In this document: one piece after another, positions 55,243 to 61,251 of the stretch
Layout: every line of letters begins with the position of its first letter
Position numbering within the stretch: the stretch's first letter is position 1
DNA from: an uncultured Chlorobiota bacterium
GTDB taxonomy: Bacteria; Bacteroidota; Ignavibacteria; UBA10030; UBA6906
Reading direction: 5' to 3'
Length of the DNA: 64,000 nt
Assembly (NCBI GenBank): GCA_900696645.1
Contig: CAADGV010000009.1
Span: forward strand, 62,001 to 126,000
Notes under the pieces: generated by a model
Seen by the model: the letters and a program-made list of their open reading frames with translations, nothing else
What the model was told of the DNA's origin: nothing
The model's database searches: none
Translations under genes and position numbers: made by a program

Positions 55243-55261
55243 CACATTATTTTGTACAGGC

Positions 55262-55462
55262 ATGTTTCACGCACCATATGGCGGGCACGCTCCGCGCCAA
55301 TCGAAGGTGTTGCAATACTGGGCGGTGTTTCTCGAAGACGGGAAGAAGCCAGTTGCTTTCTTCGAAAAGTATGATGTTGCTGTTATGTTCAAGGAGACGA
55401 TGGTCGGAGGGGAATGCACAATAAAGCCCTATGCCTTCAGGCCCGAAGATGTTCGTTCGTGA
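55262..55462 (+). CDS. small hypothetical protein
   Basis: This 66-residue protein (MFHAPYGGHAP, YWAVFLEDGKKPVAFFEKYDVAVMFKE) lies 19 bp after the cupin gene in the same orientation. No family was recognised. Support is limited to position and plausible composition; no clear ribosome site is present, and the frame could start at 55211. Confidence 0.4.
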   Translation: MFHAPYGGHAPRQSKVLQYWAVFLEDGKKPVAFFEKYDVAVMFKETMVGGECTIKPYAFRPEDVRS

Positions 55463-55513
55463 GAATCATGACGTAAGGGAAAGGGTTCCACGCGCAAGTT
55501 GCTCTCACGGGCT

Positions 55514-57163
55514 CTACGATCCCGACAGGTTCCGTGTAATTACCCCGATGAAATCCGGATTCCGGTTGATGTCGATGTAGTCGATACCATTGTATGCCTC
55601 AGGCACTGCCTTGAAGGAGAAGGCAAGGGCCTGTATCGACAGCAACTTTTCCACCCAGCGTTTCATGGCACAGTCCAGTTCATTCCGGCAGTGATTTTTT
55701 GCGTAATAATCCTCCGAGATAACCGGAACGAAGCACTTTGTATCGACAATGGCCCACATATACTTGGCCGTGAACGCCTCACCGATACCGATGCTTTTCT
55801 GATCAAAGAAGATGCTCAGCTTGTCGCCATTCGGTTTCCGGAATGCAGCCAATGGTTCATACACATTCTTCTTCACCCATTCGGTTTGTGAATGGGAATA
55901 GCTGATAAAGACGTCGTATTTCTGCGAACCCTCTGCCACTCCGGTTACGAGAAACTTGTGTGTGAATTTCGAGGAGAGTAGTACCGCCACCAACATGGCG
56001 GCAAGGGTTTGTCCAACGGGAATGACGTTGCCTGAACCCAACAAGATGAATCCGAACAGCGCCAACAATACAACACCGGCAGTGAACGCGAGGATCGAAA
56101 TTGCAGCCGGTTTGGTTTGCAGAGCTTTGACATACCTGAACAGCAGGGCAAAAATCAGCACGCTGAAAAGAGAGAAGAACAGCAATTGCCCGACTATCCC
56201 GTAGCGGTTCTCTATCGGCAGTTTCAGCCGCGTACTTCCTTCCAGGTTGTCGCTTAGCGCCCACGTCACAATGTACGGGCCCGGCACTTTCCGGTTACCA
56301 ACTTTGATAATATCGTGTACTACATCTCCGACGACAATGATCTTATTCGAGAGATTCACCCGGCCGTTGGTTTCTTGAGTACGATGAAGGCGACCTGCCT
56401 CCGGCGAGTCGGGAACGAATGTGTAGGTGATTCTTTCCATCTCTTCCACTGAACCAAATGGAATGATCGAACCTTCCCGTTTAGGTTCATGTCTCAGGTG
56501 TCTTGAATCCCCAAGATCCATGGCAACCCTTCGGGCAAGTGATTCAATCCATACAGTATCAAACATGGCCGACTGAAGGTAGATGTCATTCTCATACGTG
56601 GCCATATTTCCTTCGTTGCTCGGATAGATATAGGTATGATACCGTCCGCTGCCGGGTTGTTGCCCGTCTGATCCTGCGAGGTAGGCGTTGTAGATGTCGA
56701 TAGCGTGCTGCTCTTCAATCTCACCAAAATCAATCTGTGTCAGATCCGCTTCCTCGTGCTCTGCCCGGATATTGTACGATGCGTACACGGGGATATTCAG
56801 GTCTTTCAGTTCGTGCAGAGCAGACTTGAGGTTTTCAAGTTCGGTAGTGTCCCTGCTGAACCAGATATCCAGCACCACGCCTGCGGGATTGTTGTTCGAA
56901 CGGCTTTCCCGCGCAACAGTGTTCAGTAATTGCACAACACGTTGCCGGAAAAGCCGGAACGACTCTCCTTCGCTGCCGGTTGCAGGCTTTTCCAGATTGA
57001 CGAACACCAGTTTGTTGTTGACGACCTCTCCTGATTCACCCGCCGTATTGGCTTTGTGTACCAGCCATGTATCCACCCATTTCCAGTTGATCAGCCCGAT
57101 TACAACAACAACGGTCAGCAGGTAGGTGATCAGGTAAACTGCAAGGCGTTTGAGCGTAAACAT
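55514..57163 (-). CDS. CHASE2-like sensor fused to cytoplasmic TIR domain
   Basis: This 549-residue protein has one N-terminal span (LAVYLITYLLTVVVVIGLI). A periplasmic region of about 290 residues in CHASE2 style follows (LVFVNLEKPA near its start, VVLDIWFS, then KIIVVGDVVHD). Three close spans lie at about 330-400 and a C-terminal TIR domain at 415-549. The TIR has KYDVFISYSHSQTEWV, a DQKSIGIGEAF loop and the putative catalytic Glu495 in HCRNELD, the position of the NADase glutamate in SARM1-type TIRs. One span, CHASE2, then three spans is the known CHASE2 layout, usually joined to cyclases or kinases. ATG at 57163 lies 8 bp after the upstream stop; TTG at 57181 is an alternative. Confidence 0.82.
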   Translation of the reverse strand: MFTLKRLAVYLITYLLTVVVVIGLINWKWVDTWLVHKANTAGESGEVVNNKLVFVNLEKPATGSEGESFRLFRQRVVQLLNTVARESRSNNNPAGVVLDIWFSRDTTELENLKSALHELKDLNIPVYASYNIRAEHEEADLTQIDFGEIEEQHAIDIYNAYLAGSDGQQPGSGRYHTYIYPSNEGNMATYENDIYLQSAMFDTVWIESLARRVAMDLGDSRHLRHEPKREGSIIPFGSVEEMERITYTFVPDSPEAGRLHRTQETNGRVNLSNKIIVVGDVVHDIIKVGNRKVPGPYIVTWALSDNLEGSTRLKLPIENRYGIVGQLLFFSLFSVLIFALLFRYVKALQTKPAAISILAFTAGVVLLALFGFILLGSGNVIPVGQTLAAMLVAVLLSSKFTHKFLVTGVAEGSQKYDVFISYSHSQTEWVKKNVYEPLAAFRKPNGDKLSIFFDQKSIGIGEAFTAKYMWAIVDTKCFVPVISEDYYAKNHCRNELDCAMKRWVEKLLSIQALAFSFKAVPEAYNGIDYIDINRNPDFIGVITRNLSGS

Positions 57164-57171
57164 ACGGGTAA

Positions 57172-58335
57172 CTACCGGCAATCTTTTTCAGACTTTGCGT
57201 AATACATCTCGCTTCTGCCTTCATCGCCGGCCATATCGTACGCCCATCCCAGAAATGCATAGACTTTCTCCAGGTCTTCGCAAAGCAGACTCACGGTTTC
57301 GCGGTCACCCTCCTGACGGGCAAAGGCAAGGTCGCCTTCTTGCATCTCCAGTTCTTCCAAAAGAATCTGAATCGAGTTCGCCAACAGAGTTTTCCCTTCC
57401 TGTTCATCGTTCGCCTTCTCAGTACTCAGCAAAGCCCTGGCAAGTGACAAAGCGGATTCGAGGGTGTTCAGATCGTCGGAACCATATTCATTCTCAAAAT
57501 ACTGCATAGCGGCGCGGAAGGCCGGTACCGCGTCAACAGGCATGTCCATTTCCATGAACAATTCTCCCAATCCCATATAATCCTCCGCCAATTCATCCGG
57601 CGCAGATTCATCGGCGAGTTCCTGCTGCAACGCAGCAATCGCTTCCTGGTAATTGTCATATTCAACGGCAGCATTGCTGGAGGTGAATGCCCCTTGACCG
57701 GCTGACTGCACTACGGAATTGGATTTGGACAACTCGTCCCCATGTCGTTTGGGTTTCAGCGTTACTCCCTGAATGTGGATAGGAACCTTGTCGATGATCT
57801 GTATGCTTCCTTCTTCGGTGCTGATAACAGCTTTCCCGGATTTTCCTTCAGACAAGTCGGTGAACGTGAACCTGGTTCCCTTGCTGGCAGCCGTTGTTCC
57901 TTTTTCGTTCGTGTTTCTGTAGTTGTAGCCGACTGCTTTGTGAACGGTATTAGCTATTTGCGCGCCGAGGCCTTTGGTAACGTGGTTTTCACTTTTCGCG
58001 GTGAACTCGACGGTGTATTGCATTGCATTCCCCGGCGTTGTCGACTTCACCACCTGCGTTCCTCCGGGACTCTTCAATTGAATGATGGTGCTGGGAGGAA
58101 TGGTTAACCGTGTGCCAGAAACGTAGCGATCACCAACGGCGGCTTCTGTTTTGTTGCCTGTATTCCCCGGTGGCAAAACGGTCACTCGGGCGCTGCGGAC
58201 TGTTTTGCCTTGAAAGGCCAGTCCGGTTACCTCGCTGTATTTCTGGGCCATGAGAGGCTGGAGCCCGGAAGCAACCTGAAGAAACACGGCTCCAACAAAA
58301 ATGGATGTAATTCGGTACGAACTGAGCGTTTTCAT
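57172..58335 (-). CDS. secreted FecR-domain/TPR protein
   Basis: This 387-residue protein has a signal peptide ending near LMAQ (about residue 30). A FecR-like beta domain follows at about 35-190 (VGDRYVSGTRLTIPPSTIIQLKSPGG, KGTRFTFT, VISTEEGSIQI). TPR-like helices follow at about 225-380 (YQEAIAALQQELADE, AFRAAMQYFENEYG). FecR domains sense or transmit envelope signals, and FecR/CHASE2 neighbours are recurrent in bacteria. It is directly upstream of the CHASE2-TIR gene on the same transcript. It is therefore the likely periplasmic partner of that receptor (inference). Confidence 0.8.
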   Translation of the reverse strand: MKTLSSYRITSIFVGAVFLQVASGLQPLMAQKYSEVTGLAFQGKTVRSARVTVLPPGNTGNKTEAAVGDRYVSGTRLTIPPSTIIQLKSPGGTQVVKSTTPGNAMQYTVEFTAKSENHVTKGLGAQIANTVHKAVGYNYRNTNEKGTTAASKGTRFTFTDLSEGKSGKAVISTEEGSIQIIDKVPIHIQGVTLKPKRHGDELSKSNSVVQSAGQGAFTSSNAAVEYDNYQEAIAALQQELADESAPDELAEDYMGLGELFMEMDMPVDAVPAFRAAMQYFENEYGSDDLNTLESALSLARALLSTEKANDEQEGKTLLANSIQILLEELEMQEGDLAFARQEGDRETVSLLCEDLEKVYAFLGWAYDMAGDEGRSEMYYAKSEKDCR

Positions 58336-58578
58336 GGGGGATGCACATTTTGTGATGAAGAATAGTTTCGGCAATGTACTTGATTGCATGCTGAAATCCA
58401 AACAGGTGGGCGAAGAAACACTTCTGGCTATTCATTCGACGTCGCTGTAACTGAGAGAGACCTTGCAAGTCAGCGACCCTTTTCCTACTCTCTATGCAAA
58501 CGAACTTCATAGTTCCTCTATCATGTTTGCGCCAATGACAAAGCCCTCTGTGTATTCTCCCACTCGAAGCAACTATTC

Positions 58579-60027: not shown

Positions 60028-60789
60028 TCATGTTGCGATGGCCCTGTCGCGTCATGCCTCACAAGTGCAAACGAATTGCCCGATTCGTTCGTCTCTGTAT
60101 AACATGAACAATACAATGCAAAGAACAAAATGAAATGCTCCGCTGACGTGCGGGGCGTTGCTGTTTCATCACGTAAAGCGAATCTCTGATTCGTTATCCG
60201 TTGCCGGCAGGTTGCACACGGTGACGGCTGAGCTTGTCGAAGCCGATCGAGTTCCACAAGCCGGCCGGCCCGATTAGCTCACTTATGTTTGTCGGAAGCA
60301 CAAAAGTGCCGCTTGGTCTCGCAGGGGGAACCGTCTCGGAAGCAAAAAGCCTTGGCAAACACGTGATGGTAAGGAATAGTCTGACCGTCTCGCTGGACCC
60401 GCATCCGTTGAGTGCATAAAATATAGAATATTTTCCGTGGTGAAGTGATCCCGCACATTCTCGTCCGTAACGCGATTGTCCCCATTGTTTGCTTTTCCTG
60501 CGGGGGATTGTGAAAGCCGTGAGTCTCCGGTGACAATCTCGTGATAGATGATTGGTATCATGAAACAGCGTGTTTACGTTTCCCTGTGTGATTCATTCGG
60601 TAATTCATTGTGATTTGTTCTGATGCCATTTCTGAAACAATGCGTTAAGGAAACCCTCTTCTCCCATCAGCGGGTTGCCCGGCTTCTTGTTAGCGCCATA
60701 TTCGTGACCAATCTATGCAGTGCCCGGCACGATCCGTCACATGCGCTGTTCACCGAAGTCCTCAAGGATCATGTTACAAACGGAGAAGT
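60028..60789. other. gene-poor stretch before transposase remnant
   Basis: About 760 bp show no convincing gene on either strand. Near 60222-60243 the segment GACGGCTGAGCTTGTCGAAG resembles a short intergenic repeat seen in many bacteria. Short frames at 60234-60419 (+) and 60283-60561 (-) have no domain, signal or ribosome-site support. The stretch next to the transposase remnant may be its decayed N-terminal half, but no motif could be recovered. Confidence 0.4.
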
Positions 60790-61251
60790 GATGTCATTGA
60801 TTACTTTTCCAAATACACCCTTGTGACGCTCTGGTCAGACCGACACAATGCACAGACACTCATCGATGCCTGCAACGCAGCGCTGCGGGAAGCGCAGAAC
60901 CTCGGCATCACCATTCCCGATCGCATCAAGCTCTTGACCGATAACGGCCCGGCGATGATCTCGCAACGCTTTGCCCGGTACATCAAAAGTTCGCCGTTCA
61001 TTCATCTGCGCACCGGCAATCATCATCCCGAGACGAATGGCTGTATTGAGCGCTTTCACCACACCTTGAAATACGAAGAAGTCTGGGGTGCCATGTACGA
61101 GAATCCTCTCGTTGCCAAAGAACGTATCGAGAAGTTCAGAACCTTTTACAACACTGAGCGCATTCATCAAGCGCTCCACTACAAAACGCCCATGGAAGTC
61201 ATCAATGACCATAAGCAGCAATCACAAATCACCTACTCAAATGTCGCTTAG
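60790..61251 (+). pseudogene. truncated DDE (rve) transposase remnant
   Basis: About 154 codons from DVIDYFSKYTL to the stop match the integrase core of IS3-like transposases. The first Asp is in IDYFSKY, the second in LLTDNGPAM, and Glu in NGCIERFHHTLK, with a final IHQALHYKTPMEVI. The N-terminal helix-turn-helix region and OrfA are missing, so it should be inactive. Clear inverted repeat ends were not found. It lies about 110 bp from a tRNA-Leu gene. Confidence 0.75.

Follow-up and report, generated by a model that had tools for sequence, protein, structure and literature searches.

TIR domains are modules of animal, plant and bacterial immunity that transmit signals or destroy NAD+. The locus described here raises the question of what such a domain does when it is the apparent output of a CHASE2-type membrane receptor, and when the gene of that receptor directly follows one for a secreted protein. 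We analyzed this gene pair within the window, a 64,000-nt stretch of DNA to whose positions all coordinates refer.

Anatomy of the receptor and its secreted partner

Both genes lie on the minus strand. The upstream one (57172..58335) codes for the secreted partner, of 387 amino acids, and its stop codon is separated by 8 bp from the ATG of the receptor gene (55514..57163, stop codon at 55514-55516), which encodes 549 amino acids. Promoter and terminator scans of the pair gave scores no better than those of shuffled sequences. Hydropathy analysis of the receptor identified hydrophobic segments at residues 7-25, 323-341, 357-375 and 380-398. The first of these is TM helix 1 (57089..57145, minus strand), modeled by AF2 as a helix at residues 2-24, and the positively charged N-terminus that precedes it indicates an N-in orientation. 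It is followed by an extracytoplasmic CHASE2-like domain (residues 27-322, 56198..57085, minus strand), supported by hhalign with a 13-sequence profile, and by TM helices 2-4 (residues 323-398, 55970..56197, minus strand), which hydropathy and the AF2 model agree in placing as the three-helix exit typical of CHASE2 receptors. The resulting four-TM topology predicts that the C-terminal TIR domain (residues 415-540, 55544..55921, minus strand) is cytoplasmic. The receptor therefore has every element of the CHASE2 layout, namely an N-terminal TM, an extracytoplasmic domain of ~250-300 amino acids, three TMs and a cytoplasmic output. The quality of the AF2 model depended on the alignment, as two sequences gave a pLDDT of 35 and 13 sequences a pLDDT of 77 with a pTM of 0.61; in the latter the ectodomain was mostly at pLDDT 60-95. 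When the full model was searched against known structures, TIRs took up the lists, so that the lack of ectodomain matches there is uninformative.

Pfam CHASE2 (PF05226) did not match the window receptor even at E 1, and in two relatives it reached 24.0 and 19.9 bits, below the cut-off of 26.3. As single-sequence scores fall short of the curated Pfam cut-off, we refer to the domain as CHASE2-like. We then compared the profile of the 13 homologues with 30 Pfam-recognized CHASE2 proteins of related genomes using hhalign. With the TM helices included, the match was 98.9% in global mode (P 1.9e-16) and 97.5% in local mode, and with the ectodomain alone 91% and 69%, respectively. Reversed controls stayed at 0.1-1.3%, and column-shuffled controls scored at most 22, vs 42 for the real ectodomain. 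The match spans the whole domain and includes a common C-terminal motif, KIIVVGD...PGPYIVTWALSDNL (KIIVVGD...PG...A..L). These comparisons strongly suggest that the ectodomain is homologous to CHASE2, and thus recover a label that a preliminary description had given from the letters alone.

The partner begins with a signal peptide (residues 1-31, 58243..58335, minus strand) that looks like type I, ending in ...PLMA-Q with no lipobox Cys, and its homologues carry a peptide of the same type. Next comes a FecR-like beta domain placed by hhalign (about residues 31-200, 57736..58245, minus strand), with the motifs KGTRFTF and STEEGSI, and then a TPR region (about residues 225-387, 57175..57663, minus strand) recognized by TPR_12 and by PDB TPRs, among which it resembles those of the kinesin-light-chain type. 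The TPR_12 match of the window protein has an E-value of 6.4e-7, 0.2 bits below the cut-off, and that of the best family member 9.1e-12. TPR repeats were found in the C-terminal half of all 9 partners of the Pfam scan; Pfam detected none in the partners that have diverged most (L128 and L129). Pfam FecR (PF04773) matched neither the window partner, even at E 1, nor the other partner proteins scanned. The hhalign comparison of the N-terminal domain with 28 FecR proteins gave 74% (P 2.8e-5), in register at the GT and EG motifs, while the reversed control gave 2.7% and shuffled controls scored at most 16, vs 37 for the real domain. We consider FecR-like a fair label on this moderate support. The first reading of this locus, which gave the pair its coordinates, strand and anatomy and placed a signal-peptide FecR/TPR protein upstream, was correct in all of these respects except that its FecR assignment holds only moderately and without a Pfam match.

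Conservation of the pair across genomes

The receptor occurs in 2 of the 98 genomes of its order, the source genome and one of its two congeners. A scan of genome contigs with the ectodomain alone, as a single protein, found nothing, and a scan with a TIR profile returned seven loci with a TIR identity of 62-79%, from Chitinophagaceae, Flavobacteriaceae (Winogradskyella, Pricia, Kriegella and Pareuzebyella) and Saprospiraceae. All seven encode the same receptor architecture, with the same secreted partner directly upstream. In a profile search of individual families, whose samples include the seed genomes, full-length matches were present in 5 of 299 genomes of the Kriegella family, in 2 of 246 of the Chitinophagaceae family (L097) and in 1 of 150 of the Saprospiraceae family (L103). 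No copy was found in searches of plasmids, phages and IMG/VR viral contigs. The distribution of the pair is rare and patchy. Weaker TIR matches from Saprospiraceae were rejected as receptors, for they are soluble TIR proteins; three soluble proteins with a related C-terminal TIR (L131, L132 and L133) lie beside a patatin-like phospholipase and TIR/TPR-type genes, in a recurring cluster.

The architecture search that had been proposed for CHASE2-TIR and FecR/TPR co-occurrence bore it out: the partner is adjacent and upstream at every one of the 13 distinct loci whose flanks could be read, mostly at a gap of 0-33 bp and once of 155 bp. A search of five seed genomes found no member of the partner family outside the pair locus, save for one marginal TPR match. 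Between the two congeners, dN/dS (NG86) was ~0.10 for the receptor, 0.06 for its TIR domain and 0.13 for the partner, which indicates that both genes are under purifying selection. The recurrence of architecture and pairing at 13 conserved loci rules out a chance architecture and, together with this selection, argues that the pair is not accidental. We are nearly certain of its anatomy and conservation. In the congener (L059 4508-11153, corresponding to 55251-58403 of the window) the neighborhood is the same and the pair is inverted, and sensor-type and response-regulator-type genes that are missing in the window adjoin it. An empty-site comparison with the third member of the genus found the region too diverged or absent at the DNA level. 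The two longest receptors (L128 698-2767 and L129 164-2428) carry an extremely lysine-rich C-terminal tail of ~130-190 amino acids past the TIR domain.

The two halves of the receptor are not equally conserved, as the mean identity among homologues is 66% in the TIR domain vs 35% in the ectodomain, and the partner follows the more variable half. Its distances correlated with those of the ectodomain after removal of the TIR component (partial Mantel r 0.79, p 2e-4, rising to 0.85 when the two most diverged members were dropped) and less with those of the TIR domain after removal of the ectodomain component (0.49, and 0.33 without the same two members). This covariation fits a physical contact between partner and ectodomain; it is not proof of one, since both are exposed to the periplasm and could just be evolving faster. 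The contact suggested in the preliminary description thus gains two indirect arguments, obligate pairing and ectodomain-specific covariation. The same observations could also fit a partner that inhibits the receptor, a guard that envelope damage or an attack would remove or titrate away, freeing a toxic TIR in the manner of a toxin-antitoxin system, as the pairing is obligate and the partner gene comes first. However, neither covariation nor gene order separates an activator from an inhibitor, and we found no earlier case that shows whether a FecR-type partner activates or inhibits; we consider such a guard quite improbable.

The TIR domain and its genomic neighbors

The assignment of the receptor C-terminus to the TIR family is certain from Pfam and from the fold. 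TIR_2 (E 2.2e-11, 44.8 bits vs a cut-off of 28) and TIR (E 2.4e-5) both score above their cut-offs, and the domain, at residues 412-549 of the AF2 model, matches TIR structures in the PDB, with Z-scores of 14.3 for the TRR-2 TIR, 13.6 for the NADase AbTIR and ~13 for SPARTA and RUN1, besides Cat1 and SARM1. Searches for known anti-phage systems with PADLOC and NCBIfam gave no whole-protein match, only partial TIR matches, with NCBIfam scores far below cut-off. Glu495 (codon at 55679-55681, minus strand, within KNHCRNELD), which had been singled out as a likely NADase residue, was correctly numbered: it occupies the catalytic position and is invariant in all 13 homologues. By counting back from the ends of the structure alignments, it pairs with about residue 208 of AbTIR if the last nine columns are taken as gap-free. 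TIR NADases of the WCxxE/WxxxE type have a Trp four residues ahead of this Glu, whereas the receptor family has His491 in 12 members and a Tyr in the one whose motif has diverged most (YCKKE). Moreover, a Glu at the catalytic position is not proof of NADase activity, as TLR2 also has one there. On the sequence, NADase activity is plausible.

These features bear on the possibility that the TIR domain is a non-catalytic assembly module, which would be clustered by periplasmic activation and recruit cytoplasmic TIR proteins as TLRs recruit MyD88. The replacement of the WxxxE Trp by His agrees with it, as does the closest PDB neighbor, the TIR of a Hydra Toll-related receptor, and other TIR proteins are encoded beside members of the family at several loci. 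Nevertheless, Glu495 is kept in 13 of 13 homologues, even in the YCKKE member, and several loci, the window included, have no TIR partner nearby, so that we think this role unlikely.

Conflict-type genes adjoin the pair at four loci, by raw count. These neighbors are SIR2-TIR and nSTAND1 at one locus; CHAT-TPR-S and a patatin at another; CHAT-TPR-S-LCAT with TIR, pYEATS-TIR and a patatin at the third; and LRR-TIR at the fourth. About two thirds of the loci have no conflict gene nearby, and ordinary genes surround the pair in the window and at the loci other than these four. A fragment of an integrase core (rve; 60715-61251), likely a remnant of a mobile element, lies ~2.4 kb from the pair in the window. 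The rare, patchy distribution and the conflict-gene neighbors at four loci fit a role in defense.

Known CHASE2 systems and a possible outside-in route to TIR signaling

The pairing of FecR and CHASE2 genes is already known, from the FecR/LysM and CHASE2-kinase operon BiofilmReg of Burkholderia (PMC5192318) and from a FecR, TPR and CHASE2-cyclase cluster of Campylobacterota (PMC9239204). The source genome has such an operon of its own (G000:C21, L057 3555-8988), in which a FecR protein (239 amino acids), a probable outer-membrane protein (815 amino acids) and a CHASE2-nucleotide cyclase (729 amino acids) follow one another, the last two labels coming from reading the sequence and not from Pfam. 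Elsewhere in the order, too, FecR genes are found near CHASE2 genes. These operons share with the window pair a secreted FecR-type protein and a receptor with N-terminal TM, CHASE2 and three TMs, and often include a TPR protein. They differ from it in that the pair has a TIR output in place of a kinase or cyclase, fuses the FecR-like and TPR regions in one protein, has no outer-membrane protein, and has diverged in both domains below Pfam detection. Therefore, of the new receptor-to-TIR wiring proposed from the preliminary reading, the TIR output is new and the FecR-CHASE2 input is not. Searches of the open-access literature turned up neither a CHASE2-TIR receptor nor a FecR plus TIR anti-phage system.

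Other systems share single features with the pair. In magnetotactic bacteria, mtxA precedes a CHASE2-adenylate cyclase gene (PMC4439547). The order, accessory gene first and CHASE2 receptor gene second, is that of the pair, but the output is a cyclase and the accessory protein a different one. The known link between CHASE2 and immunity is a caspase fusion, in the TRADD-N/EACC2 conflict systems, which also joins CHASE2 to an immune or cell-death effector; it differs in having a caspase instead of TIR, CHASE2 at the C-terminus and other partner genes (PMC8195603). The membrane two-gene System 4 of Kaur et al. (PMC7159879) was rejected as a match, being made of EACC1 and a caspase. Thoeris ThsB, SPARTA, Cat1, AbTIR and retron-TIR have the TIR fold and the Glu at the catalytic position, as the receptor does, but unlike it they reside in the cytoplasm and have nucleic acids, messengers or phage proteins as their triggers, and the whole-protein scores obtained here fall far below their cut-offs. 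Animal Toll-like receptors are alike only in how they would work, through an extracytoplasmic sensor, a transmembrane segment and a cytoplasmic TIR; they have an LRR ectodomain, a single TM and a sensor without common descent.

The known operons also lend weight to a non-immune reading, in which the pair would be a physiological sensor of the envelope or of nutrients, with a TIR domain that makes a second messenger, as a variation on the FecR-CHASE2-cyclase operon. FecR-CHASE2 operons whose output is a cyclase or a kinase are common and have regulatory roles (PMC5192318, PMC9239204), and ordinary genes surround most loci of the pair. Yet the pair is rare and patchy, while ordinary CHASE2 receptors are present in 111 of 296 genomes; conflict genes adjoin it at four loci; and no obvious messenger receptor is encoded next to it. 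We consider this reading unlikely, as we do the assembly module.

We consider it likely that the TIR domain is gated from the periplasm. An outside-in route has a precedent in the CHASE2 cyclases of Sinorhizobium meliloti, which answer an external plant protein via an outer-membrane protein (PMC13001267). In the mechanism that we propose, the partner would bind the CHASE2-like domain in the periplasm and report an envelope event, and the three-helix exit and the highly conserved juxtamembrane linker would transmit a change in conformation or clustering to the cytoplasmic side. There the TIR domains would come together and cleave NAD+ by means of Glu495, and the outcome, NAD+ depletion or an ADP-ribose-type signal, would amount to an on-demand stress or immune switch. 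The topology would be that of a Toll-like receptor and the signal route that of a CHASE2 cyclase, with TIR replacing the cyclase. That the pair is a periplasm-gated unit acting as an NAD+-consuming stress or immune switch is our preferred reading, though an evenly balanced proposition, against which stand His491 in place of the Trp, the ordinary neighbors in the window and the lack of copies in the phage, plasmid and viral searches. Its more specific version, in which the secreted partner detects phage adsorption, an envelope breach or the attack of a rival and the CHASE2-like domain activates a cytoplasmic TIR NADase, is tentative. An antiviral role is possible but less likely than not.

To our knowledge, most bacterial TIR proteins that have been characterized sense intracellular cues from within the cytoplasm. 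A TIR domain behind a periplasmic sensor with a dedicated secreted partner would mean an outside-in route to TIR signaling, by which attack would be sensed at the envelope instead of through phage nucleic acid or protein within the cell. FecR-CHASE2 would then be a general input module for cyclases, kinases, AAA+ activators or TIR, and the pair, being compact and self-contained, can be tested directly in laboratory strains.

Further CHASE2 arrangements were observed in the course of this analysis. In the source genome, CHASE2 is fused to an apparent AAA+ sigma54-type activator of 895 amino acids (G000:C14, L058 4339-7026), a further output for the shared input module. A CHASE2-only protein of 390 amino acids (L083 2923-5031) adjoins a secreted, FecR-like-looking gene without a Pfam match, and another, of 414 amino acids and likewise free of an output domain (L085 3451-6704), adjoins a secreted protein that combines a caspase domain with an outer-membrane beta-barrel.
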